64,000 bases of DNA from Brachycybe producta. Its lineage: Eukaryota > Arthropoda > Diplopoda > Playtdesmida > Andrognathidae. The first letter of the stretch is position 1. The number at the start of each line of letters is the position of its first letter. Positions 35,001-62,759 of the stretch are shown here, piece after piece. The translations under genes and the position numbers were made by a program. The notes beneath the pieces are model-generated. The model was not told where the DNA came from. It made no database searches and saw only the letters and a list, made by a program, of their open reading frames with translations. The DNA lies in the NCBI GenBank assembly GCA_036925085.1, contig JAUPFP010000031.1:1302001-1366000 (forward strand), in the 5' to 3' direction.

Positions 35001-35237
35001 GAAATGAAACTCACCTTAACTTATATTCTGAAGAACCATCGATTCATCTGTGGCCCAAAAACACAGGTATTCGGCCTAATCTATGTTATTCTTCAACAAT
35101 GTTTTCATATTAAAAGTTATATTTTAAACTTAATTATCTGTTCTCAGATACCCTTGAAATTCGTGAAGGGCCGTGCTGCTCTCATGGCTGAAGACGGTGT
35201 TCAACTCTATGTAGAAAAAAGGAGTACAACTACATAA
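32038..35237 (+). CDS. Cytochrome P450, CYP3 clan, gene 4 (subfamily B)
   Basis: Predicted ER-bound haem monooxygenase. Exons: 32038-32111, 32749-32845, 32928-32980, 33039-33135, 33208-33327, 33397-33485, 33637-33782, 33851-33975, 34100-34241, 34316-34479, 34555-34643, 34706-34843, 34904-35066, 35148-35237; 528 codons, no stop. Anchor in 1-25; I-helix AGFETT at 331-336 as in vertebrate CYP3; ExxR 389-392 (ETLR); haem loop FGFGIGPRNCIG with Cys 469. Same 14-exon plan and phases as the A genes. Donors of intron 9 (AAAA|GCAAGT) and intron 10 (GAG|GCATAC) are GC, forced by the reading frame. Intron 6 holds a LINE 3' end. AATAAA stands at 35274. Of the B genes it has the longest linker exon 9. Confidence 0.92.
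33512..33595 (+). mobile_element. LINE 3' end in gene 4 intron 6
   Basis: Contains GCCATAGGCCTATTTGGCTG and GCAGAGTA, the 3' terminal motif of the LINE at 10057-10806, followed by a TTGTATTTGTAATG tail. Gene 5 and gene 6 lack it at this position. Confidence 0.6.
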
Positions 35238-37266: not shown

Positions 37267-37340
37267 ATGGACATCAGTTTCGTAAATATTCTAACATGGA
37301 TCGTCGTGTTCTTTGTTGCTTTACTTTTCGCATTGCACCT
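37267..37340 (+). pseudogene. Spare P450 first exon (subfamily B)
   Basis: Encodes MDISFVNILTWIVV... and ends CACCT|GTAAGT, the same length and phase as exon 1 of genes 4-6, with the conserved 5' block in front. No exons 2-14 follow before the next exon 1 at 39031. A LINE 3' end lies 170 bp behind. It could be a relic of a deleted gene or an alternative first exon of gene 5, since the phase would fit. Confidence 0.7.
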
Positions 37341-37512
37341 GTAAGTACAACACCTACTACAGTCGTCTCACTGTTAACTGTAAGCTTGTGACGTCAGAAG
37401 AAAGGCTGACCAAGAAATTTTGCATCTGTCATTTTGCCTCATAAAAACCATTCTGAACAGTTTAAATTTTTATTTTTTTAGCCGACAAAAGCACTAAACA
37501 AAAACTCTCGAT

Positions 37513-37695
37513 CAATGCATATATTTGCAGCATTAAAAAAATATTGAAATTGTTGTTGGGTTTATATCAATAGGGTTTTATATTTTCTGGTTTTGACAAT
37601 GCATTTTCTATGCTGCACTTGGACTCTTGTCCCTCTACCATAGGCCTTTATGGCTGCTTGCAGAGTAATTTTTCAAATTCAAATTTCAAATTTTG
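37513..37695 (+). mobile_element. LINE 3' end upstream of gene 5
   Basis: Nearly the same as the last 180 bp of the LINE at 10057-10806 (GCATATATTTGCAGCATT ... GCCATAGGCCTTTATGGC), with an ATTCAAA tail; strongly 5' truncated. Confidence 0.75.
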
Positions 37696-37699
37696 TATT

Positions 37700-39030
37700 A
37701 AAATCGTTGAAAAATGCTGAATGCATTTTTTTTAAAAAATTATGTAAACTTAAATCTTAGCATTAATATATACAACCGAAAAAATTAATTGCAACGCTGG
37801 CTCCACATCAAGCTGACCTACCACTAACAAAACAGAGAACGCAGTGTTTCGAGACAAACTGACAACAATTTTAGAACATTTCTATGACTTTTGTGTTTAG
37901 TTTTTGTCTTGTCAGCAATTTCACAAACAATATTCCAAGTCTCGACTCAAGTCAAAATATCAAAAGGGGTTTTTTGTTTTGTCTACACTGTAATATGCAA
38001 CATTTCGATCGTCACCTCTGTCTGTGCATTTGTGGTCAGTTAAGTATTAAAACAACAACAGAACAGTTGCATAGTTTACGTAAAGACAGCTATAGAAACA
38101 CAAAACAAGCCCCCAATTTGTTTGCAGTGTTGTGTCACAAATTTGTTGTGTGTGTTTGTGTCATGAGTAGGACATAATATACTGCTGACAATTGTGTTTT
38201 CTTTTCAAAAGTCCGCTTTTTCTTGACATTTTTGTTGTGTTTTTGTCTACAGGTTGTTAGAACTAAGTGAAAACTTCACTTGGCTCCGCCCCCGTTATGA
38301 CGACTAGCTGGCAGCTTCTAATTGGCTGGTTATGTAGTCTGACGTTGAAAAGGGCGGAGCATGTGACGTCAGACTTCATAACCAGCCAATTAATTAGAAG
38401 CTGCCAGTCGTCATAACAAGGGCGGAGCTAGCCAACTGAAGTTTTCACCTAATTCTAACAACCTGTTTTTGTCTCGAACTCATGTTGCACTTTTTGTCGT
38501 CTTGATGTGGACCCGGCCCCTTATAAATTTTTATCAATGAAAATCAATATGGAAAAAATAGGCATAATCAACATTTGATATTTGAATTTTTTTAATACTA
38601 GACTAGATAAATGTATGGTAAGCTCAGAACTAAGACTCAAAACAAAAACACTAATCAAAACCAGTTTCTGTACTTCTTCATTATCACAAATGAGTTGCTA
38701 TTTTGATCGAGTCATAATTGTGGAGCCTTGAATTTTAATAACAATTTCAAATTAAATTGCAAAGTAAATAGTTTGTTCCAATGTGAACTTAAGATAACCA
38801 ATGGAACAACCCACACACCCCATTTAATAATAATAATTTTTATCTTTTTACACTGATCTTGTTTGTGAGGCTACCAATTGAAAAGAAGCTTTTTCAAAAC
38901 AAGAACTTTTATATTTGTAACTCCAAACACGACAATTGTGTCATATATAAAGGATTCCGTAAATTCAGTACGGTATTAAGTAGCTCAATTTCAGCTTTCC
39001 TGCAACTGAAGCTAAATATCCTGTTTCGAA
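37700..39030. other. Upstream region of gene 5
   Basis: Parallels 43800-45574 before gene 6 over most of its length. Differences are the ACAGG MITE here (38249-38466) and the hAT-like element there. The last 300 bp before exon 1 look identical in both. No separate gene. Confidence 0.55.
38249..38466. mobile_element. ACAGG-type MITE with 8-bp target duplication and empty site
   Basis: Ends ACAGGTTGTTAGAA / TTCTAACAACCTGT; TTTTGTCT at 38241-38248 and 38467-38474. The homologous place before gene 6 (about 45013-45022) reads GTTTTTGTCTCG without insertion. Interior has GGCTCCGCCC, TTCTAATTGGCTGG and inverses. Confidence 0.8.
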
Positions 39031-42000
39031 ATGGACATCAGTTTCGTAAATATTCTAACATGGATCCTCGTGTTCTTTGTTGCTTTACTTTTCGCATTGC
39101 ACTTGTAAGTACAACACCTACTACAGTCGTCTCACTGTTAGCTGTAAGCTTGTGACGTCAGAAGAAAGGCTGACCAAGATGTTTCACTTGTGTCATTTTG
39201 CCTCATAAAAACCATTCTGAACAGTTTAATTTTTTATCATTTTTCTAGCCGACAAAACGACTCAAAAAAAAATTCTTGATCAACCCATCAGACGTCACTG
39301 TTGATAACATTTCTCTAAAATCGGTTTCTTTCAATTTCTATTGAAGGTATATATCAAGGCGTTTTGGTACATTGGAAGCATTAGGAATACCCTGCCAGAA
39401 ACCCTGGCCCTTCCTCGGAAATACAGCTTCAGAGCTGTTTTCGGTAATTATTATTTATTTCTAATTGATAATTACAATCCAATTATCCATTCGTAATTGA
39501 ATATTCATTTATTTTAACAAAATAGTTACTGCACGAACATGATGTGAAATTGTACAAAAAATACGGTCGAATTTATGGGTAAAAATTAACTCTTAAACAA
39601 TTAAGTTATTCTTTAAATTTGAAATTTACTTCCGTTCGCAGTCATTACGAAGGTAAACATCCGACCATAAGAATTGGTGATCCGGAAATATTACGAGAAA
39701 TTCTCGTTAAACAGTTTCCAAATTTTGCCGATCGGAGGGTAATTTTACATTAATTAATAAATTAAATTACTTGACTGAGTTGACTTACAAACCGATTAAT
39801 GTTTCACACTATTGCGCAGCATGTAGATTTTTTTTTGGACAAAGTCTTCATGAGATTTGTTAGTTTGATGAGAGGCGAAGAATGGAAACAAACACGGAAC
39901 GTACTAACTCCAGCTTTTACGAGCGGAAAACTCAGACAAGTAGAATATCGAATACTAAAATATGAAATCACCATGTTTTTCTAAAATAATTTTTTTTTTT
40001 TTTTCAGATGACGCCTTTGATTGAGAAATGTTCGACCCATTTGATCAAACTCGTAGAAGAGAAGAGCGAAACTGGAGAAAGCATTGAAGCAAAACAGTAA
40101 CTTTGTGATTCCGTTCGCAATTAAAAACGACAACTAAATTTAAACCGTAATTTTTTTTTCAAATTGTCCGCAGAGTATTTTCTACTTATCTCACCGACGT
40201 CATTGCGTCGTGCGCATTCGGACTCGACATGAACGTTCAAGTAAAAGATGGAGAGAAATTCTCCAAATATACTAAACAATTGGCAGCTTCACAGTCCTTA
40301 ATTATTTTCATCATCATAAGTAAGAGTTGTGTTTAAAAGAAATACAAGAAGAATTTTCTAAAGCTAAGTATACACTAGCTGTGACTGTTTGCAAACAATT
40401 TACAAGCAGCTAGTTTGCAAACAGAAGTGTCCTAGTGTGAATTTAGCGTAACAATTCAAATAATCAATAATTATTCCTTATAGTGAATTTGCCTTCGTTC
40501 CTGATGAAATGGGTTTTCTTTCCCTTAATGAACCGAGTTTTTCATGGACTCGAATTTTTCAAGAAAATTGCTTCCGATGTTATTAAAATACGGCTAACCA
40601 AAAATGAAGTAAATGAGTAATTTCACAATTTCAAGAACTGTTGGACTGTAACTTCATAAATACTTAAATATATAAAGAAATGCAAAGGTAGAATTCTAAG
40701 GAATACCTTTTAACATATATTTCACTAAGTGAGTGCACTGTCGCCATTGTGTCGTTATGCCTAAAAGAGCTTTATGAGTACAGTTTGCCAGTTTGTCATG
40801 TCTAATCCAGAGGTCATCCATAATTTTGTGGAACGAATCCAACCCGGCCATAGTTTCGAGACCTCTGGTATATACATGGTACTCGAGAAATTAATTCTTC
40901 ATTTCAAAATGTAGAGAAGAAATGACTTTTTGCAAATAATGTTGGATTGCCTTAAAGAGGAAGAAGACAAAACCGACAAAAGCAAACAGAGTTCCGAAAC
41001 CCAAGACGAAACCAAGGGATACCATAAACTTACCCCGAAGAAAAGCAAGTGTGCATAGAACAAATTCTAGATCAGAAGGATCGAACTTTACTAAATGTGA
41101 TTTTGCCCTCATTTTGTAGTATTGACAGTGGACGACGTCACAGCTAATGCACTGCTCTTTCTGTTTGCCGGATTTGAAACTACGTCGACAACTTTAGCGT
41201 TTGTTGCATATGCTCTCGCAACCAATCAGGAATGTCAAGACAAACTACTAGAAGAAATCGACACTGTTTTACAAAAAAATGAGGCATACACCAACTCAAA
41301 ATTTTAAAAAGGCTATTTTTCTTTAGTTTTTTAATAAACTCATGGTTTTAATTTCAAAGGGTAAACTGAATTACGATGTTGTGGCTCAAATGCAGTATAT
41401 GGAAATGGTTATCATGGAAACACTTCGTATTTATCCACCGTTAGTCAGGTAAGACTTCGACTTTCTATACTTTTATGAAATTCTCAAGTCACTTTCTACA
41501 TCTACTTCAGAATCGATCGTCAGTGTTTGGTAACAACTAAAATCAAAGACCTCGTCATTCCAAAGGATGCTGTCGTAATAATACCAGTTTATGCAATGCA
41601 CCACGACGAAGAATTCTATCCAGAACCTGACAAATTTGATCCTGAAAGGTAACTAGAAAAATAACTACAGAAACAACCTTAAAAACACGAAATACTTTCT
41701 CGAACAGATTCAGTCCCGAAAATAAAGATCAGAGAAACGAATATACTTTCTTCGGGTTCGGTATTGGACCGCGAAACTGTATCGGAATGAGATTCGCCTT
41801 GATGGAATTGAAACTCACCTTAACTTATGTTCTGAAGAACCATCGATTCATTTGTGGCCCCAAAACACAGGTATTCGGCCTAATCTATGTTGGTCTTCAA
41901 CAATGTTTTCATATTAATAGTTATATTTAAACTTAATACCTGTTCTCAGATACCACTGAAATTCATGAAGGGCTGTCCTTCTCTCATCACCAAAGACGGT

Positions 42001-42039
42001 GTTCACCTCTGCGTAGAAAAACGTAGCACCACTACATAA
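39031..42039 (+). CDS. Cytochrome P450, CYP3 clan, gene 5 (subfamily B)
   Basis: Paralog of gene 4. Exons: 39031-39104, 39347-39443, 39526-39578, 39642-39738, 39820-39939, 40008-40096, 40174-40319, 40484-40608, 40915-41044, 41120-41283, 41360-41448, 41511-41648, 41708-41870, 41950-42039; 524 codons, no stop. The four-codon difference from gene 4 lies in linker exon 9. I-helix AGFETT 327-332, ExxR 385-388, haem Cys 465 in FGFGIGPRNCIG. GC donors at introns 9 and 10 as in gene 4. Introns 1-4 and exons 1-4 are very close to gene 6, while exon 10 is nearly the same as in gene 4, so the gene looks mosaic. The spare exon at 37267 could serve as an alternative start. Confidence 0.92.
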
Positions 42040-42339
42040 AAAGCTAACTAAACCTAAATTTTGAATGACATCCATAATGCACACCTTATATAAGAAACCT
42101 CATTAAAATTCTGGCTATTCAATTCAACTGAGTACACCTGCAATCAGTGCGAGAGCCAATGTGGCAGAAGGATAATTCCCAATCATAAATGATTGTAATT
42201 TAGATATAAAGTTTAGAAATCATGGAACTGAAATGAAAAAATGACGTTTTCAAGTTTCTCAAACGCTGTTAGAACGCTTCTGCGCTTCAGCTAAACATTT
42301 AGTTGATTTGATACAAAAATATCTAAGAAATAATACAAT
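42040..42339. other. 3' flank of gene 5
   Basis: Homologous to the flank of gene 4 (for example GAGTACACCTGCAATCAGT). No clear AATAAA close to the stop. Nothing else seen. Confidence 0.5.
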
Positions 42340-42989
42340 TGTAAAGTTGCTGCCTTCGTTATCGTGTAGCGTTGTCCAAAGTGTCGTCTGCTAGGGTGAA
42401 GCAGACAATTTTGCAGACAGCTTTTACCTCCAATACCAGCTGAAGTGTCGTCTGCTATGGGAAAGCAGACAATTTTGTACTCTTATAACCTCAGGCAGGC
42501 CCCTTACTAAGACTACCCCTACATTACAAGGTAGTCCTATAGCTTCCTTAGGGGATGGGGAACCGGCTGTCAAAACTTCCTTTCAGCGCAGCCTATGCAA
42601 ATTACCCTTCTCATTCAACCAATGGCATCGACTTCTCTATGACATATTGAAAGAATAAACAAAACCCACGTGTGTCTGTTATCATTTATTGATAGACCTC
42701 AGGTGGAGTTTCCACAATACAGTCAAGTTTACGAGGAAAAGATCGATCTGAGTATAATATCTACGAGGCGGTAAAAAGAACGGCCTCAAAAGAACATGCT
42801 TCTATAAAACCCGTTTAACCCTTAAGCATAATATATATGGCTTTCGTTGCCATAGCAACATCACGGACAAACATTCATTCTTATTTCCAAGAACTAAGGA
42901 GAGGCTAAAGAGAGGAGAGAACAGAGGCAATGACGTCATAGTGTGACGTCATAGGCACTGTTGCCAGGGAAAATGATGGGGTCATCACA
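42340..42989. mobile_element. Solo LTR behind gene 5
   Basis: 650 bp starting TGTAAAGTTGCTGCC and ending GGGTCATCACA, flanked by CAAT at 42336-42339 and 42990-42993. The homologous flank of gene 4 (about 35515-35540) is uninterrupted. An internal TGTCGTCTGCTA...GCAGACAATTTTG block occurs twice; AATAAA is near 42654. Confidence 0.75.
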
Positions 42990-44284
42990 CAATAATCTCG
43001 TAATTTTAGTGATTTAGTATAAAACCTTTATTTTATGACAAAATGAAGCAGAAGTGATGTCAAAATCTATCATATTGTAAATCAAATAATTTTGTACAAA
43101 ATTTCGCCAATTCCATGTCATAATTTTTCATGTTTTTGTTTTTGTTAAAATTTCTCTTATTGTCTGATGCGAGTCATCATTTTGCTCGTTGATGTTTCAA
43201 TTATTTCAATCTACTTTTAAGTATAAATAAATACTGTTTTTTAAACTCAAGATTCATTTGAAACTTGAAGAATAAACAAAGGTGAAAAGACACATTTCAA
43301 AAGAACTATTGTGATGGTGTAGTCACAACTTAATATACTGCGAATGTGACATGCTTAGAGTCCGACTCGCCCTCGCCAAGCCTCCAAGCATGAACTGTTT
43401 TTTGTTTAAGTCTACAAAAGGATTTCTCGTTTAGTCAGTGCCAAATGTGGCTTTCCTCACTTCTGGGGAACTTTGGTCCTCTGAAAAGAAATCCAGATGA
43501 TCCTCTTGTCTTGCTTCAGCCTTGACCTGGAGGGCCAATAGAGGGACTCCGAACGTTTCTGTGGGCCTCTATTGGTGGTGAAATTTCTAGACTAAAGCCA
43601 TTTTTCCTGATGTTATTTCCGTTGTGAAAATAAATATTCAAAACTTGATTTAACTTTATAAAACTGCTCTTTATAAACTTGTGTACTGAATTACATTACA
43701 TAACAGTAAAGCACTTGATTAAACATCAGGTAGTTTCCACTGAGAATTCTAGTATGAACTCTGTACCTTGAAAATCGATTTGAAAATAATCAAATTTTCA
43801 AATTTTGTTTTGTATTAAAAATGTTAAAAAATGCTGAATGCTTTTTTTTTTTAAAAAAAAATTATGTAAACTTAAATCTTAGCATTAATATATCCAACCG
43901 AAATTAATTGCAACGCTGGCTCCACATCAAGCTGACATACGCTAACAAAACAGAAACGCAGTGTTTCGAGACAAATTGACAACAATTCTAGAACATTTCT
44001 ACAACTTTTGTGTTTAGTTTTTGTCTTGTCAGTAGTTTCACAAACAATTCCATGTCTCGATCGGCTGAAGTCGGTAAACATATCAAAAGAGGGATTTTGT
44101 TTTATCTAGACTGTAATATGCAACATTTCGTCACCTCTTGTCTGTTGCAGTGTGGACAGTTAAGTATTAAAAGAATAACCGAACAGTTGCATAGTTTACC
44201 TAGCCAGCCACAGCTATATAAACAAATACAAAATCCAATATTAGTTCGTGTTGTGTGTCACAAATTTATTGTGTGGGTTTGTGT
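42990..44284. other. Intergenic region before gene 6
   Basis: 42994-43300 continues the flank shared with gene 4. 43330-43640 is unique, without motif. From 43800 it parallels the upstream region of gene 5. Confidence 0.45.
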
Positions 44285-44947
44285 CAGTGGCGTAGCTATA
44301 GGCACCCCGCAACTGTGGGGGTGGGAGCGCAGGTGGTTTGGGGGCGCAAAAAACGAAATGAAAGTTATGTATTTTCAAAAATAATTGAATAAATTAAGCA
44401 AGTGATTCCGAATCACACGCTTAATTTATTTAGTTAATTTCGAAAATAAATCGACTTTCATTTAATATTTACTTTTAAAAACTACATACTTGCACCTTCA
44501 TAGAGATCAATGGGCACGGAGGAACAACGGTAGGAATATTCGAAAAAAATTGTAGGAACAGTCGGAAGGTTAGGTTTCGTTAAATTAAGCTCGTTGCAGG
44601 GTGGTTGGGGGCGCAGCCTCCAGTTTTTAAAGAATTATTCTTATTAAATCAAATTAGTCCATTGTTTGACTGTTCCCTAATTTGATTAACAGGAAGAACG
44701 GTCGGAACAATGGACAAATTCGTTTTAATAATTCTTTAAAAAATGGGGGCTGCGCCCCCAGACCCCCTGAAACATGATTAATTTCCTAACCTTCCGACTG
44801 GAACTAATGTTGTTCAAACCTGTTCCGCCGTTCATCAAAATATTACCCCCCCCCCCCCCGGCCTAGTATGGGGGCTATGTGGAGAGGAAGCTAAGGGGCG
44901 CAAAGTTTTAAGTGGCGGGGGCGCAACCAAGCCTAGCTACGCCACTG
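44285..44947. mobile_element. hAT-like MITE with 8-bp target duplication
   Basis: Ends CAGTGGCGTAGCTA / TAGCTACGCCACTG; GTTTGTGT at 44277-44284 and 44948-44955. The empty site is preserved before gene 5 (about 38150-38163, GTGTTTGTGTCATGAG). The interior has nested inverse blocks (GGGGGCGCAGCC at about 44605 against GGGGCTGCGCCCCC at about 44745). No coding sequence; 663 bp. Confidence 0.85.
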
Positions 44948-45329
44948 GTTTGTGTCATGAGTAGGCCCTATACTGCTGACAATTGTGTTTTGTTTTTTCT
45001 TGGCATTTTTGTTGTGTTTTTGTCTCGAACTCATGTTGCACTTTTTGTCGGCTTGATGTGGACCCGGGCCTTAGACATTTTTATCAATGAAAATCAACAT
45101 GGAAAAAATAGGCATTATCAACATTTGATATTTGAAAACTAGATAAATGTCTAACTAAAACAAAAACACTAATCAAAACCAGTTTCTGTACTTCTTCATT
45201 ATCACAAGCAGCAAATGATAAGATTAAAAAAAGGAAATGAGTTGCTATATTTTGAGTCATATTTGTGTAGCCTTGAATTTAACAACAACTTCAAATTAAA
45301 TTGCAAAGTAAACAGTTTGTTCCAATGTG

Positions 45330-45720
45330 AACTTAAGATAACCAATGGAACAACCCACACACCCCATTTAATAATAATAATTTTTATCTTTTTACACTGA
45401 TCTTGTTTGTGAGGCTACCAATTGAAAAGAAGCTTTTTCAAAACAAGAACTTTTATATTTGTAACTCCAAACACGACAATTGTGTCATATATAAAGGATT
45501 CCGTAAATTCAGTACGGTATTAAGTAGCTCAATTTCAGCTTTCCTGCAACTGAAGCTAAATATCCTGTTTCGAAATGGACATCAGTTTCGTAAATATTCT
45601 AACATGGATCCTCGTGTTCTTTGTTGCTTTACTTTTCGCATTGCACTTGTAAGTACAACACCTACTACAGTCGTCTCACTGTTAGCTGTAAGCTTGTGAC
45701 GTCAGAAGAAAGGCTGACCA
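45330..45720 (+). repeat. Promoter, exon 1 and start of intron 1 identical to gene 5
   Basis: This stretch equals 38787-39177 base for base as far as I can read. It includes the 5' block, exon 1 and the first 70 bp of intron 1; beyond it intron 1 differs by a deletion in gene 6. Confidence 0.75.
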
Positions 45721-48203
45721 AGATGTTTCACTTGTGTCATTTTTGCCTCTGTCGATAAAATTTCTCTAAAATCGGTTTCTTTCAATTGCTATTGAAGGTA
45801 TATATCGAGGCGTTTTGGTACATTGGAAGCATTAGGAATACCCTGCCAGAAACCCTGGCCCTTCCTCGGAAATACAGCTTCAGAGCTGTTTTCGGTAATT
45901 ATTATTTATTTCTAATTGATAATTACAATCCAATTATCCATTTGTAATTGAATATTCATTTATTTTAACAAAATAGTTACTGCACGAACATGATGTGAAA
46001 CTGTACAAAAAATACGGTCGAATTTATGGGTAAAAATTAACTCTTTAACAAGTTATTCTTCAATTTGAAATTTACTTTCGTTCGTAGTCATTACGAAGGT
46101 AAGCATCCGACCATAAGAATTGGTGATCCGGAAATATTACGAGAAGTTCTCGTTAAACAGTTTCCAAATTTTGCCGATCGGAGGGTAATTTTACATTAAT
46201 TAATAAATTAAGTTACTTAAGTTACATATCGACTAAGGTTTCACATTTTCGCGCAGCATTTAGAATTATTTAAGGATAAATTCTTGAAGAGATTTATAAC
46301 TTTGATGAGAGGTGAAGAATGGAAACAAACACGGAACGTACTAACTCCAGCTTTTACGAGCGGAAAACTCAGACAAGTAGAATATCGAATACTAAAATAT
46401 GAAATCACCATGTTTTTCTAAAATAATTTTTTTTTTTTTTCAGATGACGCCTTTGATTGAGAAATGTTCGACCCATTTGATCAAACTCGTAGAAGAGAAG
46501 AGCGAAACGGGAGAAAGCATTGAAGCAAAACAGTAACTTTGCGATTCCGTTCGCAATTGAAAACGACAACTATATTTAAACCGTCTTTTTTTTCTTCAAA
46601 TTGTCCGCAGAGTATTTTCTACTTATCTCACCGACGTCATTGCGTCGTGCGCATTCGGACTCGACATGAACGTTCAAGTAAAAGATGGAGAGAAATTCTC
46701 CAAATATACTAAACAATTGGCAGCTTCACAGTCCTTAACTTTTTTCATCATTATAAGTAAGAGTTGTGTTTAAAAGAAATACAAGAACAAAGTTTCCTAG
46801 TGTGTACTTAGCTTTAACCATTCAAATAATCAATTATTTCTTATAGTGAATATGCCTTCGTTCGTAATGAAATGGTTTTTTTTTCCCTTAATGAACCGAT
46901 TTTCTGATGGATTGGAGTTTTTCAAAAAAATTGCTTACAATGTCGTTAAAATACGGCTAACAAAAAATGAAGTAAGTCCTCCATAATTTTGTGGAATGGA
47001 TCCAACCTGGCCGTAGTTTCGAGACCTCTGGTATATACATGATACTCGAGAAATTAATTCTTCATTTCAAAATGTAGAGAAGAAATGACTTTTTGCAAAT
47101 AATGTTGGATTGCCTTAAAGAGGAAGAAGACAAAACTGACAAAAGCAAACAAAGTTCCGAAACCCAAGACGAAACCAAGGGATACCATAAACCTACCTCT
47201 AAGAAAAGCAAGTGTTCATCCAACCAATTCTAGATCAGAAAGAGCAAACCTTACTAAATATGATTTTGCTCTCATTTTTAAAGTATTGACAGTGGACGAT
47301 GTCACAGCTAATGCGGTGCTTTTTCTTATTGCCGGATTCGAAACTACGGCGACAACTTTAGCGTTTGTTGCATACGCTCTCGCAACCAATCAGGAATGTC
47401 AAGACAAACTACTAGATGAAATCGACAAAGTTTTAGAAAAAAATGAAGTATATAAAGCTAAATAAAATTTAAAATTGATAATCAAGCATGTTTCTTTCAA
47501 TTTCAAAGGGAAAAGTGAATCATGATGTTGTGGCTCAAATGCAATATATGGAAATGGTTATCATGGAAACACTTCGTATTTATCCACCGTTACACAGGCA
47601 AGACTTCAAGAACGCCATAGTTACTTGAATTATTGTCATTTGAAATCATTAAACTGTTTCCTCATCTACTTTAGAATCGATCGTCAGTGTTTGGTAACAA
47701 CTAAAATCAAAGACCTCGTCATTCCAAAGGATGCTATCGTAATCATACCAGTTTATGCAATGCACCACGACGAAGAATTCTATCCAGAACCTCACAAATT
47801 TGATCCTGAAAGGTAACTAGAAAAATAACTACAGAAACAACCTATAAAAATTCAAAATACTTTCTCGAACAGATTCAGTCCCGAAAACAAAGATCAGAGA
47901 AACCAATATACTTTCTTCGGATTCGGTATTGGACCACGAAACTGTATCGGAATGAGATTTGCCTTAATGGAATTGAAACTCACCTTAACTTATGTTCTGA
48001 AGAACCATCGATTCATCTGTGGCCCCAATACACAGGTATTAGGCTTAATCTATGTTGCTCCAAACAATGTTTTCATATTAAATGTTACATTAAAACTTAA
48101 TATCTGTTCTCAGATACCCCTGAAATTCATGAAGGGCCGTGTTTCTCTCATGGCCGAAGACGGTGTTCACCTCTATATAGAAAAAAGGAGTATAACTACA
48201 TAA
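45575..48203 (+). CDS. Cytochrome P450, CYP3 clan, gene 6 (subfamily B)
   Basis: Third B paralog and the most compact. Exons: 45575-45648, 45798-45894, 45977-46029, 46088-46184, 46257-46376, 46444-46532, 46611-46756, 46847-46971, 47078-47207, 47284-47447, 47509-47597, 47675-47812, 47873-48035, 48114-48203; 524 codons, no stop. I-helix IAGFETTAT 326-334, ExxR 385-388 (ETLRIYPPLHR), haem loop FGFGIGPRNCIG with Cys 465. Donor of intron 9 is GC, that of intron 10 is GT (GC in genes 4 and 5), and that of intron 11 is GC (CAG|GCAAGA; GT in the others), so donor type has switched among close copies. Intron 9 ends in AAAG. Confidence 0.92.
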
Positions 48204-50224
48204 AAAAGCTACTATCATACTGTAGACAGTAGATACATAGAAAATGAAGGTTATCCACACTGAATTCTAGCAAAGTTTGAGAAAAATGACGTAAGTTTAG
48301 TATGTAGTGTAGAAGTTCTGGATGTAATTTCTCAAGCACAGGACCAGAAATCACCTGAATGAACTCTTTTACATGTCACTGTGACATATACAAATTGTGT
48401 GTGTGTGACGGGAGGGGGGGGGGGGGGGTGAATCAAAGCAATCCATCTACTTAATTAATTACGATTAATTTTCAATCAAATTAATAACAAGGCTTTTTTT
48501 CTAATTTTTTTAAGCGTTCAAATTGGGTACAACAAATTATGGCGGTAAATTAATGTTTCCTTAACTATGATATGTTTATATTGTTATATTGTAATTAAAG
48601 ATGTTAAAAATATTTTTAAAGCGGTTTTCTAAGCGGTTTAGCAATACAAGCAGGCTTCCCTACCGATGTTTGTGGCGCTAACTGACAGGCATCTGGAGAC
48701 AGCTTCAGAATATCTTTGGCGCCACCCTTTTATGAGCGTCATCCATTTCTAATTGGTTTGTAACTAGGTCTAATGTCATATGCTCCGCCCTTTTTAATTT
48801 CTAATTGGTTGATATTTGGTCTGACGCTCATAAAAGGGCGGAGCTAAAGAAATTCTGAAGCTGTCTACAGATGCCTGTTGCTAACAGAGCCTCATAAGGC
48901 ACAAAGTAACTACAATGATAACACTATAGGTGGTGCAAAATTGGCTATTTACCACTCTACTGCGCTGCATACTGGGGTTTACCAAGCAAATAAAACCAGA
49001 CTGAATCAACAAAATTTGTTATACCTGAGGAAATGTTGAATGAAGGTCGCCTGTTAATACATGTATATAGGCCTACTTTATGGTGAATCTTTGCTAAAGT
49101 TTCCTTTTGTTTGATTTTCATGCAAATTGTAAACAATTTGTTTACTAATGTATTATTCAACATTTTGATAACACTAAATGTGTTGGCTAAACTAGCGCCG
49201 AGGAGCTCTACTAGCTCCACTTAGTTCCATGGAATCCATCGAAATCCTACTCTGCGAACAAACAAAAAAATCGTGCAGTTCATGGATAACTGAGCTCTTC
49301 GCATGTCTTTTGTCTTCATGTACTGTGCGTGTGGAATGCACTTAATAAAATTACTGAAATAAGTATAATTTTTAAAAAATAGCTTCAGCTTCAGGAGGTT
49401 CTGTCTGACACCTTCTCATGAGGGTCCTGGTTCCTGATAACCACTGTTGGATACCCTAATCTATATTGCCCTCCCTAATTGGTACTTCTGTCCAGGCCTA
49501 TGTTGCCTACCAAGATATAGTATGCACACTATTGTTTTATGATACATTTTCAAAATTCTCCGCCTCCAAGAATTTTCCGCCCTAGGCGCAGCTGCCTACT
49601 TCGCCTATTGGGAAATCTGCCCCTGAACACACCGGATCAGACAAAACTGTCTTAGTCAAAACTTCGTAGCCATTTTTTCACAGATGGAAAGAAACCACCT
49701 GCACGCCAGATCAGTCATTTTTCTTGGAAAACAACAACAGGACAACTCCGTGTAAACAATACCACGTGGATGTTGAGCTGGATTTGACGGATTTTAACAG
49801 ACCAGTGCATGCCCAGAACAATCTTGTCTTATAACTCATTCACACAAAACGAAGTACAAGGGACTGTCCTGTTTTTGACTAATTGTGACCAATCGACACG
49901 AAAGCTGTTCTTCAAACAAAATGACTAATGCAGTATGCGGTGGCCTCACTTGATCCGATGTATTCAACATATCTGTTCGAGATGGTTTTCCTTCAATTTA
50001 AGACTGATCCGGTACGTTACCTGAAACACACTCAATAAGACATATTGACTGAGGCGTTCCAGACAAAATGTCTGAAGCAAAAGTGTTATGTGTGCCAAGC
50101 AAAATCCCATGGAAATTTGATCAAAAATGACGTATTTTTAGTACTCGCGTATAATATGCACCCGAGATTTAACGGTAAATCGAAAAGTAAAACCTTAGAG
50201 GCTTAGACTATGAATAATAAGTAA
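48204..50224. other. Intergenic region, genes 6 to 7
   Basis: A G-run near 48412-48428, an ACAGG MITE (48685-48878), then about 1.3 kb without recognisable genes. The minus frame 48957-49220 has no known domain. Confidence 0.45.
48685..48878. mobile_element. ACAGG-type MITE
   Basis: Ends ACAGGCATCTGGAGACAGC / GCTGTCTACAGATGCCTGT; interior GCTCCGCCCTTTT and TTCTAATTGG as in sister copies. Flanks GCTAACTG / GCTAACAG suggest a slightly decayed duplication. Confidence 0.65.
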
Positions 50225-52326: not shown

Positions 52327-55300
52327 ACACACAGACCTGGCTTAATATATATATAATAATATTTAAATGTAAAACATACTGGTTAAAGCTGGGATTAAAA
52401 CACGAAATTGTTGTACAGCAATGTATGCCTACAATAAAAACCAAAAATAGAGAAAAAGTTTTGGTCCCATCGCATTTGGGTTTCAATCCATCATCCTTAT
52501 GGGTCCATTTGAATCTATTAGATCCACAGGTCCCACCCATCCCATCAGTATCATGGGTCCCACTCAATCCATTAGTCCCACTTGTCTCATCTATCATTGT
52601 TTAGTCCCATCCTATCCCATCTCACAATATGGAACGAGGTCGGGTGGGATTATTAATTTCTTACTACAGTCATACTACGGTCACTGCACTGTAATGTGAG
52701 CTTTTGACATCGACACTATAATTTTACCAACTTGTAGATGGTGTTTTCTGTGACTCGTTTCTTCTCCTGATCGCGCGGTGACCGCACGAAGAAGATCCGA
52801 GTAACAGAAATAGCTGGATGGAGTTGGATTACGATCGTCCTCCTGCATGGGGGTGAAATCAATGCAGAAGAATGGTGGCCATCCTTCTCTCGGTCGATGC
52901 TGATGTACATCTTCTCCTGCTGTTGTTACCGATTGAAGATGTTGTAGCTGCTTCCGGATCGTATGTCTCCTGCCTCTGTAGAGAAGTGATTAGTTACCAA
53001 ATAAAGACAACGATGCTTTCCATTATAACGCTTCTTATTCATCCTTATACGGAAACGCTAAGTTTACAAGGATGAATTGTGAATATTAAAGATGCGTCCT
53101 CATGCCCATGATGTGATATACGGATAAAGATCTAACATAGTACAAAAAAGATGCAAAGACAAGGACGAGGAACAAAGAGGAATGCGGTCCTTTTATACCT
53201 TGGACCTGTGTACACCTACGAGGTGTAACCAGGTCCAAGTGAACATGGTCCTTTGAGTATCACTCCGCCATCTGAATATTAATCAGAAGAGGAGCGAGGG
53301 ACAATTAAGAGTTGTTTACCCCCAGGCTATGGTTTCGGCGGGAACAGGAGTTGCTGGGTGTTACAGTAACTTGAAGCTTATGACATCAAAGGGAAAAGAT
53401 CAAAGTTTTATTATCCCATTTTGTACTGAATAGAAAAAGGATAATAAGTAAGCCCCTATTTCATAATTTTTTTGTTTTAAACTGTTAATAACTTTTGCTT
53501 CCACTCCCTTTCTATCAAGACAAAATGCTAAAAGCATAACTTTTTGGTCAACCCCCTCTTGGTGTTACAAACTTCATCTTACACAGCAGCAACCGTAGTC
53601 GCCTTTATAGGCACACACGTTTGCAACTCGGCTTCAGTTAAAACCTGATTTCTCTCATTGCTAAAATAGTCACATATCAAAGCATTTCGGTACATTGGAG
53701 ATGTTGGGAATACCTTGTGTGAAGCCGTGGCCCTTCATTGGCAGCATGGCTAAAGAGCTCTTCACGGTAAAGTTCATAAAAAATACTGGCCACTGTGTAT
53801 TTCTAATTATAATCACCTTAATCATTTTTTTCTATTCAGGAAGTTCATCACAATGACATGAAACTTTACAAAAAATATGGTCGAATTTATGGGTAAGCAA
53901 ATTCTTATGGCCATATATTTAAAAAAACACTAGTTTAAATGTAAGAGGCGTATACTTTGATTTGTGTCTAATTCAAAGGGGTCAGGATAAAAAGATGAAC
54001 GAATGAACAGGATTAACGGGATGAACCTTGGGGTAACTCTTAAAACCCGACACAGAATGCATATAGAATTAGAGGGACACTATATTATGGATGAACACAC
54101 ATTTTAAAGGGATGAACAGAAATAAATAAAAGGATGAACATACTTTAAAGGGATGAACATGGTTTTAGGGGGATGAACATGGTTTTAGGGGAGATGAACA
54201 TGGTTTTAGGGGAGATGAACATGGTTTTAGGGAGGATGAACATGGTTTTAGGGAGGATGAACATGGTTTTAGGGAGGATGAACATGGTTTTAGGGAGGAT
54301 GAACATGGTTTTAGGGAGGATGAACATGGTTTTAGGGAGGATGAACATGGTTTTAGGGGGATGAACATGGTTTTAGGGGGATGAACATGGTTTTAGAGGA
54401 TGAACATGGTTCTAGGGGGGATGAACATGGTTCTAGGGGGGATGAACATGGTTCTAGGGGGATGAACATGGTTCTAGGGGGGATGAACATGGTTCTAGGG
54501 GGGATGAACATGGTTCTAGGGGGGATGAACATGGTTCTAGGGGGGATGAACATGGTTCTAGGGGGGATGAACATGGTTCTAGGGGGGGATGATCATGGTT
54601 CTAGGGGGGATGAACATGGTTCTAGGGGGGATGAACATGGTTCTAGGGGGGATGAACATGGTTCTAGGGGGGATGAACATGGTTCTAGGGGGATGAACAT
54701 GGTTCTAGGGGGATGAACATGGTTCTAGGGGGATGAACATGGTTCTAGGGGGATGAACATGGTTCTAGGGGGATGAACATGGTTCTAGGGGGGATGAACA
54801 TGGTTCTAGGGGGGATGAACATGGTTCTAGGGGGGATGAACATGGTTCTAGGGGGGATGAACATGGTTCTAGGGGGGATGAACATGGTTCTAGGGGGGAT
54901 GAACATGGTTCTAGGGGGATGAACATGGTTCTAGGGGGGATGAACATGGTTCTAGGGGGGATGAACATGGTTCTAGGGGTGATGAACATGGTTCTAGGGG
55001 GGATGAACATGGTTCTAGGGGGGATGAACATGGTTCTAGGGGGGATGAACATGGTTCTAGGGGGGATGAACATGGTTCTAGGGGGGATGAACATGGTTCT
55101 AGGGGGGATGAACATGGTTCTAGGGGGATGAACATGGTTCTAGGGGGGATGAACATGGTTCTAGGGGGATGAACATGGTTCTAGGGGGGATGAACATGGT
55201 TCTAGGGGGATGAACATGGTTCTAGGGGGGATGAACATGGTTCTAGGGGGGATGAACATGGTTCTAGGGGGGATGAACATGGTTCTAGGGGGGATGAACA

Positions 55301-58300
55301 TGGTTCTAGGGGGGATGAACATGGTTCTAGGGGGGATGAACATGGTTCTAGGGGGGATGAACATGGTTCTAGGGGGGATGAACATGGTTCTAGGGGGGAT
55401 GAACATGGTTCTAGGGGGGATGAACATGGTTCTAGGGGGGATGAACATGGTTCTAGGGGGGATGAACATGGTTCTAGGGGGGATGAACATGGTTTTAGAG
55501 GGGATGAACATGGTTTTAAGGGGGATGAACATGGTTTTATGGGGTTAGGTTTGGTTCGGTTAGGTTTGGTTCAGTTAGGTTAGGTTCGGTTACCTAACCT
55601 AACCTAAACTAAAACCACATTCATCCCCCCGAAAACCAGGTTCATCCACCCTAAAACCATGTTCATCCCCCTAGAACCATGTTCATCCCCCTAGAACCAT
55701 GTTCATCCCCCCTAAAACCAATTTCATCCCCCCTAAAACCATGTTCATCCCCCTAAAACCATGTTCATCCCTTTAAAGTATGTTCATCCTTTTATTTCTC
55801 TCAGTTCATCGCTTTAAAATGTGTGTTCATCCATAATATAGTGTTCATCTGATTGTATGTGCATTCTGTGTCGTGTTTTAGAGTTACCCCAATGTTCATC
55901 CCGTTCATTCGTTCATATTTTTATCCTGACCCAATTCAAAGACAGTACACACATAACTTTGCTTAGCCATTAATCATTTTCTGTTCATTGTTTTAAGTTT
56001 TGAATCTGTCCTTTTGTTGCAGTCAATATGACGTTCGAATTCCAACCATAAGAATTGCAGAACCAGAAATTCTACAGCATATTTTCGCCAAACAGTTTTC
56101 AAAATTTACCGATAGAAGAGTATACTTAAATCAATTAACTAGTGACTTCGTACTTGATTAATTACTATTACTATGACTAATCATAGCACATAGATGGTCA
56201 TTCCGACCCAATGGAACTGAAATCCCTAAACAAAATGAGGGGCAACGAATGGAAACAGACAAGAAGAATACTGTCACCAGCTTTTACAAGTTCAAAACTC
56301 AGACAGGTATAATATCGTTTTCTAGTCAATCTATATAATTACTGTGGGTCTAATTCCAAAGTGCATGATTTCCTTTAAAGCCAGGAACTGCAAAACAGTG
56401 CAAAATAGTTATACAGGACTAGTCAGTGTAGAGATTAGTAGTGAACTTTACACGTTAAATACCTAACTAGTCTTCTTCAATGCTTCAAAAAAGATTAGCC
56501 AATCACGAGCAATAATACTCTTCAATGAAGTTAACTCAAAGGAAGATGAAGGTACTGTAGGTCCCATATTTTAAAGAAATTAAGCTCACAAACCAGTCAC
56601 ATCCTCATCATAGAATGGGAACAGTCTATACTAAACATGATGATTTAAATAAAACTAGTCATGATTGAATATTTTTAAGTGACTAGTAATAACCAAGTGG
56701 TACCTGGCCCTCAGTTAGTAGAAGAAGTAAACATTTATTGGCATATCTTTTTATAACAATTAATTAATTATGGTTCTGTTTCTTTGATTAAGTTACCGTT
56801 ATGTGACACATAACATTTGGTAACTTAAGTTGTTTTCTACAAACAAATTAAAATTTCAAATAAAAAATCATTATTTAGTTGCCGAAATTAATCGAGAAAT
56901 GTTCGATTAAGCTGTTGGAACGAATAGAAGAGAAAAGTAAAACGGGAGAATGTTTTGAAGCGAAAAGGTAAGTTCATAATGTTTAAATTTGTCATATATT
57001 CTTTTATGGTTCAGGGTGGAGATAAATCGGATTTATTTGATTTATTTAAAATTTCATAAAAAGTGGCCTTTTTTATTAACTAAAAATCCTATGCACGCAA
57101 AGTATTAAATCTGGGCATTCACTCGTCAGGTACACATTGTTATAAAAAACTGATTTAAAAAAATTAAATTTTTTTTAGAAAAATGTGATTTAAATCAACT
57201 TCATTTATACCATTATGGTATTGCAATTTTTTTTATTTTGACAATTGTAAAAGTGGATCGTCGTAATTGAAATCATTGTAAAACAAGAAGGCTAACATAT
57301 TTCATATATAATCTTAGACTATTACTCTACTGGACTGGCAACTCCCTATCTTCTACATGTTAAAGCTGTATGGCAAGTTATTTTAGTTTTTTCACTTTTT
57401 ACTGGATTTTCCAATTTTAATTCTATTCTTTCATTTTACTGGATTCCTATCCAGTAAAATGCGGATAAAAAAGTAAAATGAATTTCCATATGTGATATTC
57501 TGCTGTGAATTTGTGTAAATCTTAGTGAATCTCGTACATGATTTTTTTTTTAATGTCGGCCCAGTTATCCGTTCGTCTCCTAAGCAAAAAATGGTTGGAA
57601 AACGTTGTTGTTACCATGTTTGTGACTCGCATTTTCCTGAAAATAGACCACAACCAAAACAGGTAACACTTTACAGACACTTTTTGACAGAACACAGCTG
57701 TAGTTCTTCATCGGCCATACTTTTTATAATAATATATATAAAAAATCCACCCTATATAACTACAAAATGAACTCGTCCAAAGTTTGACTTTTGTATTAAT
57801 GTTCATATACCATAGTCCCGCTAGAGGCGCCACTTCAAAAACGACGTCACGACGATTCAAAACTGTCCAACAGAAAATTTGGGAGTTGCCAGTCCAGTAG
57901 AGTAATAGTCTAAGATATAATCAAGTCTGTTTCCATACTTTTATGACCACCCTGTACAATAGCTTCACTGTAAACGTGGGTCCATATTAGCATAAATTTA
58001 CGTTGATACATGTTGCCCATTCCGCGAAAATTGATGTGAGTGCTAACAAGTGTGGACGTGTGTGACGCAAAATATTACGTGGCAAAATGTTTGAATTTGT
58101 GGCAAAAATAGTTGCGTCGAATTCGACCTTCACACACAACGTATATTTGTTTTTTTACTAATGTGGACCCACTTTTACAAATAACCAAAAAAATAAATGA
58201 AATTTTGCAAATATAATATGTATATCTTCTCTAAATATAACTATTTGCAGGCTATTTTCACTCTATTTCGTCGACATAATGGCTTTGTACGGTTTCAACC

Positions 58301-61300
58301 TCGACTTAAATATAAAAGTTGAAAATGCAGATAAATTCCTCAACTATATGAAAGAATATATGTTAACATTGCAATCACCTCATACAATCGCCATCGCAAT
58401 CTTAAGTAAGTGTTTGTTGTGCAGCAAAATTACGACACGAAATAAGTCTAAACGTTGAAATTAACATTCCCTTTCTAGCGGGCATGCCTGTGTTCATCAG
58501 GAGGTATTTCGCATTTCCACTAACGTATAAGTTTTCCGCCATGATAAATTTTTTCAGAAATTTAGCATACGGCATCGTGAAAAAAAGGCTAAACAGCAAT
58601 GAGGTATTATTATTATTAGAAACTATTAAGATTTCAGTTGCACTCTTCTTTAAAGAGTTACTTGTCAATCTGCAGATTGCCAAGGCAATTTGCAGATTGA
58701 CAGTAACATATACATTGTATGGCAAGCAACATGAATTTATTTTCGTATTTGTGCAATTTCGTGAATGCGTGTGTATCGCATACCGCATGTCATTTAATCA
58801 CACATACCATTAAATCATTGCTTTCATTCCTTAGTGTAAATAGTTGTTAATTTTATAATGTTTAATTGTTTATATTTCAATTTGACAATATGCAATTGTG
58901 TCTTATCTTGTAATTCAATTTGCATCTTTCTATCATTTACCATTCATTTGTGAGCTTTTGGCGTCGACCTCATAATTTTTTACCAACTTATGATGTTTTC
59001 CATAACTCGCTTCTTCTCCTGATCGCGCTGTGACCGCACGAAGAAGATTTGAGTTATAGAAAAAGTCGGATGGAGATCGATTGTGATCATCCTTCTGTGC
59101 AGGGGTGTAGTCTTCGCAGAAGGATAGTGACCATATCGTCTTGTCGATGCTGATGTACATCTTCCTTTGTTACCAATTGAAGATGTTGTAGCTCCTCTAG
59201 GATCTGTATGTCTCCTTGCCCTGTGGTGCCTCCAACTTGCCTAGAGAAGGATTAGTTTCCAGACAAGTAGACAATGCAGTTCCTCATTGTAACGCTTTAT
59301 TCATCCTTGCTCAGAAACATTAAGAGTACAAGAATGAATTGTTTAGATTAAAGGTGCGTGTGTCCTCGGGCCCATGATGTGGTACGGATATAAATCTTCG
59401 TAATACAAAAGTTGAGCAAGTAAGGATGGTGAACAAAGAGGAACACGGTCATTTTATACCTTGGACCTGTGTACACCTACAAGGTGTAACCAGGTCCAAG
59501 TGACCATGGTCCTGAGAGTATCAATCCGCCACTAGAATATTAATTAGGAGAGGAGGGAGGGACAAGCATGAGTTGTTTACCCCAAGGCTATGGTTTTGGC
59601 GGGATCACGAGTTACTGGGTGTCACACATTTTATAAATATAATTTCAACCATCCATTACTACACAAAGCCTTTCTAGCTATCGATAACCACGCAGACACT
59701 TTTCAGCACAAGTAAGCATATCGAAGTGCCTTCAGGGGGCTTCATCTCTAAGCAAACTTGCTCTGTAGGCTTCGGTCTCAGACAATCCATTTAGCAACAC
59801 TAGTTGTGGACCTCATAGTTGATGCTAGTAGATTAACTGATGCAGCAAATAAATACTATCAGACAAATATGCACTGGTCATTTGCATTTACTTTGAAGTT
59901 GTGACAACACCATCACAACAACTACCCATAACATGAGTTATAGAAATTAAGTTTAGCATATGTTAATGGCTCTTTTAGCATCTGCTAATTCCATTAAGAA
60001 TAGCTAAACAATCATTAAAAATATGACCCTAAGTGAAATGTTCCATGATTAGTGAATAAGGAGTTATTTTCGTAGACTAATTACTCATTTTAGTTTACTA
60101 AAATATTAGTTGCACACACACACACTGCACAGCTAAAAGTCATAACTAATTTTTCATTTGAAAATACAGAGACATGATGATGTTTTACAAATAATGCTAG
60201 ACTGTATCAAAGACGAACAAGATAAAATGAAAGAAAGCAAAAACAGTTCAACAAACAACGAAAGTTCACTGAAATCCAACGAAAACCAGAAAATTACACC
60301 AAAGCCAAGTATACAACTATTTTTTTTTTAATAAAAACATTAACCAGCCGCTTATTAAAAATAAACTGTTGTCTTTTCCTAGTATCTACTGTGGGAGATG
60401 CCGCTGCCAATGTGGTGATGTTTCTGTTTTCCGGGTTTGAAACCGTGGCCTCAACTATCACAATTGTTACATACTGTCTTGCAACTCATCAGGATATCCA
60501 AGACAAATTATTAAACGAAGTCGACCATGTTTTAGAAAAGAATGAGGTAGAAACAACCCCATTCAAAAAACAAACAAAGTTATTTAGTTTATTTAAAGCA
60601 TGGTTTCAATTTTAAGGGAAAAATCAATCACGATATTCTAACTCAATTGACCTACATGGATATGGTAATCATGGAAATGCTTCGTCTTTATCCACAACTG
60701 AACAGGTTAGACCCCAGCGGAATTAAAGCCTAGCACAGACTGTGTATCCGCTGACTTGACAACATCTTCGTCAGACACAGTGACTTGTATCTCGATACAT
60801 GTGTGACCACCTTCCCCAGATACTTAAAAGCAAATACAGTAGAACCTCGATTATCCGGAATAAATGGATCCGCGAACCTGGTCCGGATTACTGAAAGTCC
60901 GAATATATCTGAAAAATTACTTTAATTCTTTCCTTCACTATCGAGAAGTTAAACTGATAAACAAAAAAAAAACATTTCTATGATAAAATCCAGGGTGAAA
61001 TTACCGAGATGAGGCTAATCGAGATTCTACCGTATTTTCCATTGTTCTGAGTTGGCAATTTTGCTTTAAAATTCTCAAAATACGTTCATAATGCCAATTT
61101 TAGAGTGGAGCGTGAGTGTTTGGAGACTGCAAAAATTAAAGATCTGATCATTCCCAAAGGTGTTCTTGTAGTAATTCCAGTCTATTGCATGCACCGCGAT
61201 GAGGAATTCTATCCCGAACCAGAAAAATTTGATCCCGAAAGGTAAACAAAGAAAAGGTCAACTATTCTCAAAGCACGGTATTATTATAATAATTTATTTT

Positions 61301-61641
61301 TTTTAAACAGGTTCAGTCCCGAAAATAAAAATAACATAGATCCATATACTTTTTATGGATTTGGTGGCGGACCACGGCAATGTATGGGAACAAAAATGGC
61401 TATGATGGAAATCAAACTAACCCTAACTCATATCCTGCGGAACTATCGATTCAAATGTGGTCCAGAAACACAGGTTGTACAAAAATCACAGAAAACTATA
61501 CAACATATACTAATAGAATAAAATTAACACTTTCGTTATCTCTGTTCCTAGATACCATTGAAATATATGGCAAGCCATATCTCACTCATGACCAAAAATG
61601 AAATTCATATTTGCGTGGAAAAAAGAAACAAAACCATATAA
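51286..61641 (+). CDS. Cytochrome P450, CYP3 clan, gene 7 (subfamily C)
   Basis: Diverged member with the same 14-exon plan. Exons: 51286-51344, 53670-53766, 53840-53892, 56023-56119, 56187-56306, 56879-56967, 58251-58405, 58479-58603, 60170-60308, 60383-60546, 60617-60705, 61104-61241, 61311-61473, 61552-61641; 525 codons, no stop. Exon 5 must start at 56187, since the nearer AG at 56194 would break the frame. The anchor is five residues shorter than in A and B. I-helix reads SGFETVAS (328-335): Ala to Ser, and the second Thr replaced by Val. ExxR 386-389 is EMLR; the haem loop is YGFGGGPRQCMG, Cys 466, with Asn to Gln and Ile to Met. All donors are GT. Introns are swollen by two solo LTRs, a minisatellite-bearing element, a TIR element and a pogo-like MITE. 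AATAAA at 61870. Confidence 0.88.
52034..52283. repeat. Dispersed repeat in gene 7 intron 1
   Basis: Shares GCGCATGCGCGTCG, CTTTCATTTCAATTTCAG and CTTGAGAAAAAAA with 30255-30795. Type unknown. Confidence 0.5.
52288..52334. repeat. (CA)n microsatellite
   Basis: About 45 bases of nearly perfect CA dinucleotides. Confidence 0.95.
52695..53365. mobile_element. Solo LTR in gene 7 intron 1
   Basis: 671 bp starting TGTGAGCTTTTGACATC and ending GGGTGTTACA, flanked by GTAA at 52691-52694 and 53366-53369. The same LTR family is at 58949-59626. It contains TTATACCTTGGACCTGTG, possibly a promoter part. No internal retrotransposon is left. Confidence 0.85.
54150..55535. repeat. Minisatellite, unit GATGAACATGGTTCTAGGGG
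   Basis: About 68 tandem units of 19-21 bp. Units at both edges read GGTTTTAGG; those in the middle read GGTTCTAGG, with G-run length varying. The long frames over it on both strands are repeat artefacts. A short inverse array follows at about 55613-55790. Confidence 0.95.
55541..55612. repeat. Telomere-like TTAGGT/CCTAA stretch
   Basis: Runs of GGTTAGGTTTGGTTCGGTTA change into TACCTAACCTAACCTAAAC, a small inverse pair between the main minisatellite and its inverted counterpart. It lies in the middle of the foldback element and is not a chromosome end. Confidence 0.7.
57308..57914. mobile_element. TIR element in gene 7 intron 6
   Basis: Ends CTTAGACTATTACTCTACTG / CAGTAGAGTAATAGTCTAAG, prolonged by GACTGGCAACTCCC / GGGAGTTGCCAGTC (34 bp in all), with ATATAAT outside on both sides. 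At 57589-57700 a frame reads GKRCCYHVC and DSHFPEN, faintly like a THAP zinc finger of P-type transposases, followed by a GT donor. That coding idea is weak. Confidence 0.65.
58949..59626. mobile_element. Solo LTR in gene 7 intron 8
   Basis: 678 bp starting TGTGAGCTTTTGGCGTC and ending GGGTGTCACA, flanked by CATT at 58945-58948 and 59627-59630. Same family as 52695-53365, with scattered substitutions. Confidence 0.85.
60837..61032. mobile_element. pogo/Tigger-like MITE in gene 7 intron 11
   Basis: Starts CAGTAGAACCTCGATTATCC and ends TCGAGATTCTACCG, with TA on both sides. The start is the classic pogo/Tigger terminus. No transposase; 196 bp. Confidence 0.75.
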
Positions 61642-62759
61642 AAAAACCACATGTTCTATTGTTATATAGGACCCTAGGAGTATGTTTCCACTCAGTCTCA
61701 TGCGTTATTTATAGTACTGTCTATCCGTATTGCCGTTTGCATTGCACTTAGTCGTATACCACCATGATGCAGGGTTGTAGAATGTAGTGGGTTGTGGTTT
61801 ATATACCACACTTCAATTGACAACACATTGTAACGCTTTTTGCCTAATGTAAACCAACATTAAGTATGAAATAAACTCTTCAAATAGAACCAATGCTTTT
61901 TAATTGCAAAACGCAAAATGATAAAACAGAATCCTGTTGTTTACAGACCATTTTTTTCCGTTCTTTCAGTTTTCCGTTTTATAGAGGTAAGTTAGGGTAT
62001 GACTGGATAGTAGCAGTAGTAAAACAAGGGATTCAAGGAACCCTATAGACCTCCCATTGCTTTATTATATCAAACAACCAATTTTCTTTCATTTTTACAT
62101 GCATACGCACATGTACACGCATGCGCGCATGTGTATGCATATGTACACACGCGAGCACATGTGTACGCACATGCATTCATGTGTATGCACATGTACACAC
62201 GTGTGCGCATGCGTGCACGTATGCAACTTTTGAAACGTGCAGTGCACACTGGAATTGAAGACATCCCTGCATTCCAGACATCCCTGGGGAATTTAGAGAT
62301 TCCAACAGTTCCATTCCCGCTCGTGTGGTTCACTTGCAATGAATTTTAGAATTTATATAAATATTCCAAGACTAAAGTCCTATGAATATTTTCAAAAAAT
62401 GACAAGAAATGAGTCTTCCGGATGCCCTATAAACTCTGTGAACTCAGGAGGGCCCAACAGACTTCAACACTTAAAAAATGTTAACAACAAATATGTAAAC
62501 AATTTCTTTGACTGTTTTCGTGAATTTTGATAATAAAAGTTAATAACATTTTATAGGCCGATTTTTAATATTTGTTAAAAACATTGCTAATAACATGTGT
62601 TTTCAGTAATGTTAAACGTTCTGGTGTAATTCACTTTAAATTACAGAAGAAAAAAGAAGTCTACTGGAGTGGACGGATTTGGTGACAAGGAGGCTACATT
62701 TTGATGTCGAAATCCATTTCCAAAAGTGTTCTGTGGGCCAATCAAATGACGTGATCAAA
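61642..62759. other. Intergenic region, genes 7 to 8
   Basis: Contains the alternating purine-pyrimidine tract (62098-62224) and, at 62395-62470, a relative of the repeat behind gene 3. No gene seen; short frames have no known domain. Confidence 0.5.
62098..62224. repeat. Alternating purine-pyrimidine tract
   Basis: About 125 bases of nearly strict alternation (ACATGCATACGCACATGTAC ... GTGCGCATGCGTGCACGTAT) with many small palindromes; prone to Z-DNA or cruciform. Confidence 0.8.

Follow-up and report, generated by a model that had tools for sequence, protein, structure and literature searches.

A probable foldback-type DNA transposon with unequal minisatellite arrays and a TTAGG-like core in an intron of a Brachycybe producta P450-like gene

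In the 64-kb stretch of Brachycybe producta DNA analysed here (the window), a long minisatellite lies between inverted ends inside an intron of a P450-like gene, which raises the question of whether the repeat was carried there as cargo by a transposon, grew out of the ends of one, or arose in the intron on its own. Our analyses suggest that the locus is very probably a non-autonomous DNA transposon of the foldback, cut-and-paste type, and that a Mutator-like (MULE/Rehavkus/Phantom-type) transposase most likely moved it in trans. Its left array would have grown from a short array common to both arms. The features on which this reading is based are given in Table 1.

Table 1. Components of the element and its host intron, in window coordinates
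Feature	Position	Strand	Description
Target-site duplication AATTCAAAG, left copy	53970..53978	+	
Target-site duplication AATTCAAAG, right copy	55933..55941	+	
Left terminal inverted repeat, non-array part	53979..54151	+	starts GGGTCAGGATAAAAA; 6 ATGAAC motifs
Left-arm tandem array	54152..55545	+	67 units of 19-22 bp; 12 T-type, 52 C-type, 3 T-type
Core at junction of arms	55543..55608	.	TTAGG-like pentamers turning into CCTAA
Right-arm tandem array, inverted	55609..55769	-	8 units; 3 T-type, 2 C-type, 3 T-type
Right terminal inverted repeat, non-array part	55770..55932	-	7 ATGAAC motifs counted in 55769-55932
Host intron of P450-like gene	53893..56022	+	GT...AG; holds the entire element

The insertion and its host gene

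The element measures 1,954 bp (53979-55932) and has an exact 9-bp duplication on either side, the copies of which abut GGGTCAGGATAAAAA on the left and the reverse complement of GGGTCAGGATAAAAA on the right. Elsewhere in the window, AATTCAAAG has five + strand and two - strand occurrences, and the chance of encountering it on the + strand at one fixed position, calculated from the window counts, is about 8e-5; given so few other + strand occurrences, chance is a very improbable reason for its standing exactly at both edges. The outermost ends form a perfect inverted repeat of 15 bp that is prolonged into longer arms, the non-array parts of which, aligned from the outside in, agree at 151 of 163 bases (12 differences, 10 gap columns), and an ungapped inverted pair of 192 nt at 92% extends into the arrays. 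The layout is that of a palindrome whose inverted arms make up most of the element, with nearly no spacer between them. An exact target-site duplication, long inverted arms accounting for most of the length and arm tandem repeats that vary in number from one arm to the other (67 versus 8 units) are the features of a foldback-type DNA transposon, and the initial annotation, which had read the duplication and long inverted ends as a transposition unit, is borne out by the perfect ends and the similarity of the arms.

Minisatellites can arise and expand locally within introns, as is generally known, and a minisatellite with an inverted neighbour acquired by chance, with no transposon involved, would be the simplest case of this kind. 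Such an account is scarcely credible here, and the anatomy counts strongly against it: the exact duplication sits at both edges, the ends are perfect, and the 92% inverted arms include non-array sequence. A second alternative, which we regard as possible but doubtful, starts from the insertion of a longer MULE-like element that carried a short subterminal repeat; an internal deletion and a template switch in the course of gap repair would later have copied one of the arms over the other, creating the palindrome in place before the array expanded. The nearly spacerless meeting of the arms agrees with this sequence of events, as do Galileo copies in which arms are described as having been extended by recruiting inner sequence, with repeat numbers independent per arm (PMC3573991), but with 12 differences in 163 positions and 10 gap columns between the arms, an arm-copying event would be old relative to the array.

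The host gene is a P450-like gene of the animal type. Pfam matched P450 in four of the seven open frames searched (60229-60612, 61249-61518 and two in the copy at 47.1-48.2 kb) and gave no match for frames 280-996, 9765-10322 and 58409-58810; the best match of frame 47832-48200 among solved structures is CYP3A4, and the downstream exons 60229-60612 and 61249-61518 probably belong to the same gene as the host intron. CYP3-like P450 copies are clustered at 32000-48214 and 53.7-61.5 kb, three of them close and one diverged. The splice position of the host intron is common to three paralogs in the window, the introns of which are 58, 63 and 58 bp long, as against 167 bp, by arithmetic, for the host intron minus the element and one duplication. 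The paralog introns were considered as an empty site and rejected, their sequence being too diverged and the alignment having misplaced an exon, although the splice positions do agree. Long tandem segmental duplications also occupy 3661-26109, with three related blocks about 8 kb apart and roughly 84-95% identity among the matches listed, and a 240-aa open frame (stop to stop) at 277-999 has no Pfam match. By eye, we take the latter to resemble the end of a non-LTR retrotransposon protein.

A second copy of the element or of its ends was not found in the 64-kb window, which therefore offers no instance of the seeding of minisatellites around the genome that the initial annotation put forward as a possible route. 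BLAST of the whole element against the remaining window returned no rows at E 10, and that of the ends gave matches of only 10-14 nt; the 15-nt end, allowing at most 3 mismatches, was recovered at both true ends and, with 3 mismatches each, at 7793, 30033 and 34808, which are taken as chance matches. Exact scans gave no match for the array unit in viral or prokaryote contig collections and none for the element end in the viral contig collection; because the collections scanned are prokaryote and viral, absence there means little. Likewise, none of the literature matches listed for two 11-letter pieces of the array unit concerned repeats or transposons, judging by titles and the starts of abstracts. 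Two other repeat structures were seen in the window. A near-perfect palindrome of about 3 kb at 1209-4199, with 1,058-nt arms that are 98% complementary and a 28-nt spacer, has single-arm relatives at 11659-12368 and 19376-20040 and may represent a second foldback element, an inverted duplication or an error in the assembly, and a degenerate tandem repeat of GCACATG-rich units lies at 62096-62225 (TRF periods 18, 20, 30 and 50).

The tandem arrays and the arm motif

TRF reports the left array at 54150-55544 with a period of 21, 67.1 copies and 97% matches, and the right array with 7.9 copies, in line with the 8 units obtained there when parsed by unit (about 55609-55769). Two unit types are distinguished, the T-type, GATGAACATGGTTTTA... 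(TTTTAGG-like), and the C-type, which is TTCTAGG-like and in all but one case GATGAACATGGTTCTA...; the inner T-type units of the right-arm array are degenerate. Counted from the outside in, the first three units are 20, 21 and 21 bp long in both arms alike. The array is far more homogeneous than the arms: 51 of the 52 C-type units have an identical 16-bp body, and the other variation consists of the length of the G-run and one G-to-T change. Because the C-type units are near-uniform, as against 12 differences in 163 arm positions, the arms had probably already diverged when the array was homogenised or expanded. A search of the C-type array for block duplications, which would be a trace of how it grew, was made from the G-run lengths and gave no significant clustering (14 transitions against a shuffle mean of 17.7, P 0.08). 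Most units at 54152-55545 are 21 bp long and hence span exactly seven codons, so that long open frames encoding heptapeptide repeats run across the array on both strands; these are likely incidental.

These data bear on several points of the initial annotation. The tandem array and the inverse array were both correctly recognised, with 67 units rather than the estimated 68 on the left, and the contrast between TTTTAGG units at the edges and TTCTAGG units in the middle holds in the order of the left array. The proposal of inside-out expansion is retained in one part, in that the homogeneous middle looks expanded, but the difference between edge and middle is unlikely to stem from growth of the large array: the short right arm also runs T/C/T, so that this difference probably predates the large left array. 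With 2 C-type units in 8, the order in the right arm is weak evidence on its own. A short array in both arms would thus have come first, the left array growing later, the alternative being loss from the right arm; growth on the left is the course that we favour, and its mechanism and timing are likewise a matter of interpretation.

The array had also been described as the interior of the transposition unit. It does lie within the ends, but it is not separate from them, since the motif of its unit is present in both arms. ATGAAC, which is contained in the array unit, occurs outside the arrays 6 times in 173 nt on the left and 7 times in 164 nt on the right, where mononucleotide shuffles gave means of 0.086 and 0.090, respectively, and 0 of 20,000 shuffles reached either count; because the arms are homologous, the two counts are not independent tests. 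The rest of the window has 52 occurrences in 124,092 strand positions. The motifs are spaced at 8-18 bp at the extreme ends, followed by a gap of 70 bp (left) or 51 bp (right) and then by intervals of 18-22 bp up to the array. With ATGAAC found along each arm beyond the array as well, the array repeat is part of the terminal inverted repeats and not cargo, and the possibility that the minisatellite was captured was dropped on these grounds. Most simply, the minisatellite would be a stretch of a repeated terminal motif that has become regular. The ATGAAC motifs may be transposase binding sites, a role resembling that of the arm repeats of Galileo, which are described as containing secondary transposase binding sites in one subfamily (PMC3573991), and of Tetris, for which the authors make a like proposal (PMC4079207).

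The foldback reading would then begin with an element made of two inverted arms set back to back, almost without spacer, in which a regular 20-21 bp tandem repeat is innermost and each arm holds a short array. Transposase would be supplied in trans by a MULE/Rehavkus/Phantom-type source, and the left array would have reached 67 units chiefly by amplification of C-type units through slippage or unequal exchange.

The telomere-like core

The arms join at about 55590, in a core that the initial annotation had called telomere-like, which is a fair description. The longest in-phase CCTAA run in the core is 16 nt, at 55592, and the TTAGG run at the turn is 13 nt, whereas the maximum CCTAA run outside the element in the window is 10 nt and that in 60 first-order simulated windows 8-11 nt. 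The TTAGG-type core therefore exceeds random-sequence expectation, though it was tested post hoc. The match is imperfect on the left, where TTAGG is interspersed with TTTGG and TTCGG; the period-5, GGTTA-like repeat that TRF delimits there spans 55543-55592 and has 77% matches. In the minimum-energy DNA fold of 55461-55730, the core lies at the tip of a hairpin (z -16.4; none of 200 shuffles did as well), and in the centroid structure the core is mostly unpaired save for a short helix at the turn.

The core might derive from a telomere, or from an interstitial telomere fragment, of the TTAGG type that was captured and around which the palindrome formed. The two runs at the turn, longer than any CCTAA run in the simulated windows or elsewhere in this one, favour such an origin, but we consider it unlikely, as the left half is a mixture at 77% match, the repeat was tested only after being noticed, and GGTTTTAGG is already present within T-type array units; because T-type units contain GGTTTTAGG, a local origin of the core is equally simple. 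Under a bolder and very unlikely scenario, foldback MULE-type arms would end in a TTAGG-type telomere repeat, each transposition would plant an inverted core and an expandable G-rich minisatellite inside genes, and the core could nucleate fold-back or act as a fragile site driving one-sided growth. Among the literature matches listed, titles and abstract openings gave no description of a telomere-type core in a foldback or Mutator element.

The mover and related elements

The element is overlapped by 22 open frames of at least 40 aa. Twenty consist of array repeats, two of these extending well into the core, and the other 2 cross the element ends, for which reason the class of the mover has to be inferred; no coding frame other than the array repeats was found among these open frames in this copy. 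Other superfamilies are possible as the mover, among them Merlin, with target duplications of 8-9 bp. A MULE is suggested as the mover solely by the 9-bp duplication and the type of end, which fit without being specific: MULE target duplications range from 8 to 11 bp (PMC6446971), and G or C as the first three end bases, here GGG...CCC and not specific to MULEs, is given as a tendency in most arthropod MULEs (PMC13359780). Duplications of 8-10 bp are also described for Tetris, the transposase of which is unknown (PMC4079207). The combination of a 9-bp duplication with a minisatellite near one end is, moreover, that of Rehavkus, and the element is probably of the Mutator/MULE-Rehavkus type.

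The Drosophila FB element, likened here by description, is a foldback with short tandem repeats in its arms and a 9-bp duplication, and Galileo has a target duplication of 7 bp. Tm1, a Mutator/Foldback family of root-knot nematodes, has, like the element here, composite terminal inverted repeats with tandem units in unequal numbers per end; its units are 13-15 bp, its duplications mostly 9 bp and its arms on average 93% alike, but it has 1-9 units per arm, as opposed to 67 and 8 here, its unit and end sequences are unlike, and a single transposase-encoding copy, with a Phantom-like transposase, has been identified in M. incognita, whereas the element here is seen as one copy without transposase (PMC3169594). 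Tetris, a non-coding foldback of Drosophila virilis, has arm tandem repeats that share sequence with the outer arm, together with target duplications of 8-10 bp and expanding arrays comparable to the 9 bp and 67 units found here; it differs in its unit of about 220 bp and in a middle domain between the arms, and many copies and satellite arrays have been demonstrated (PMC4079207). Rehavkus shares the 9-bp duplications and has a minisatellite before its 3' inverted repeat, and the Phantom MULEs of aphids have duplications of 8-10 bp and a minisatellite after the transposase gene, but both encode a transposase (that of Rehavkus with a PHD finger), whereas the present copy has none and carries arrays on both arms (PMC6446971).

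More distant parallels are Galileo, a P superfamily element of Drosophila with tandem repeats in its inverted arms, in independent number per arm, which differs in its superfamily and in a unit of about 210 bp in the F group (PMC3573991), and BrickBuilt, a MITE of Porphyromonas gingivalis described as a non-coding mobile-element-like unit with a 23-nt minisatellite between inverted-repeat ends, which is bacterial, with small inverted ends and no foldback (PMC4596501). Because Tm1, Tetris, Galileo, Rehavkus and Phantom share its plan, the main features of the element have precedents, and it seems to be a clear case of a kind of element known from flies and worms; particular to it are the length of one array, at 67 units, and its TTAGG-type core. 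From a broader point of view, this single copy illustrates with unusual legibility how a transposon end may become a minisatellite, from arm motif to short array to long homogeneous array. If other copies exist, comparing the lengths of their arrays would place the expansions in sequence and put the seeding of tandem repeats by transposons to the test, and because the site is intronic, in a duplicated P450-like cluster, its length variation could be scored between individuals.
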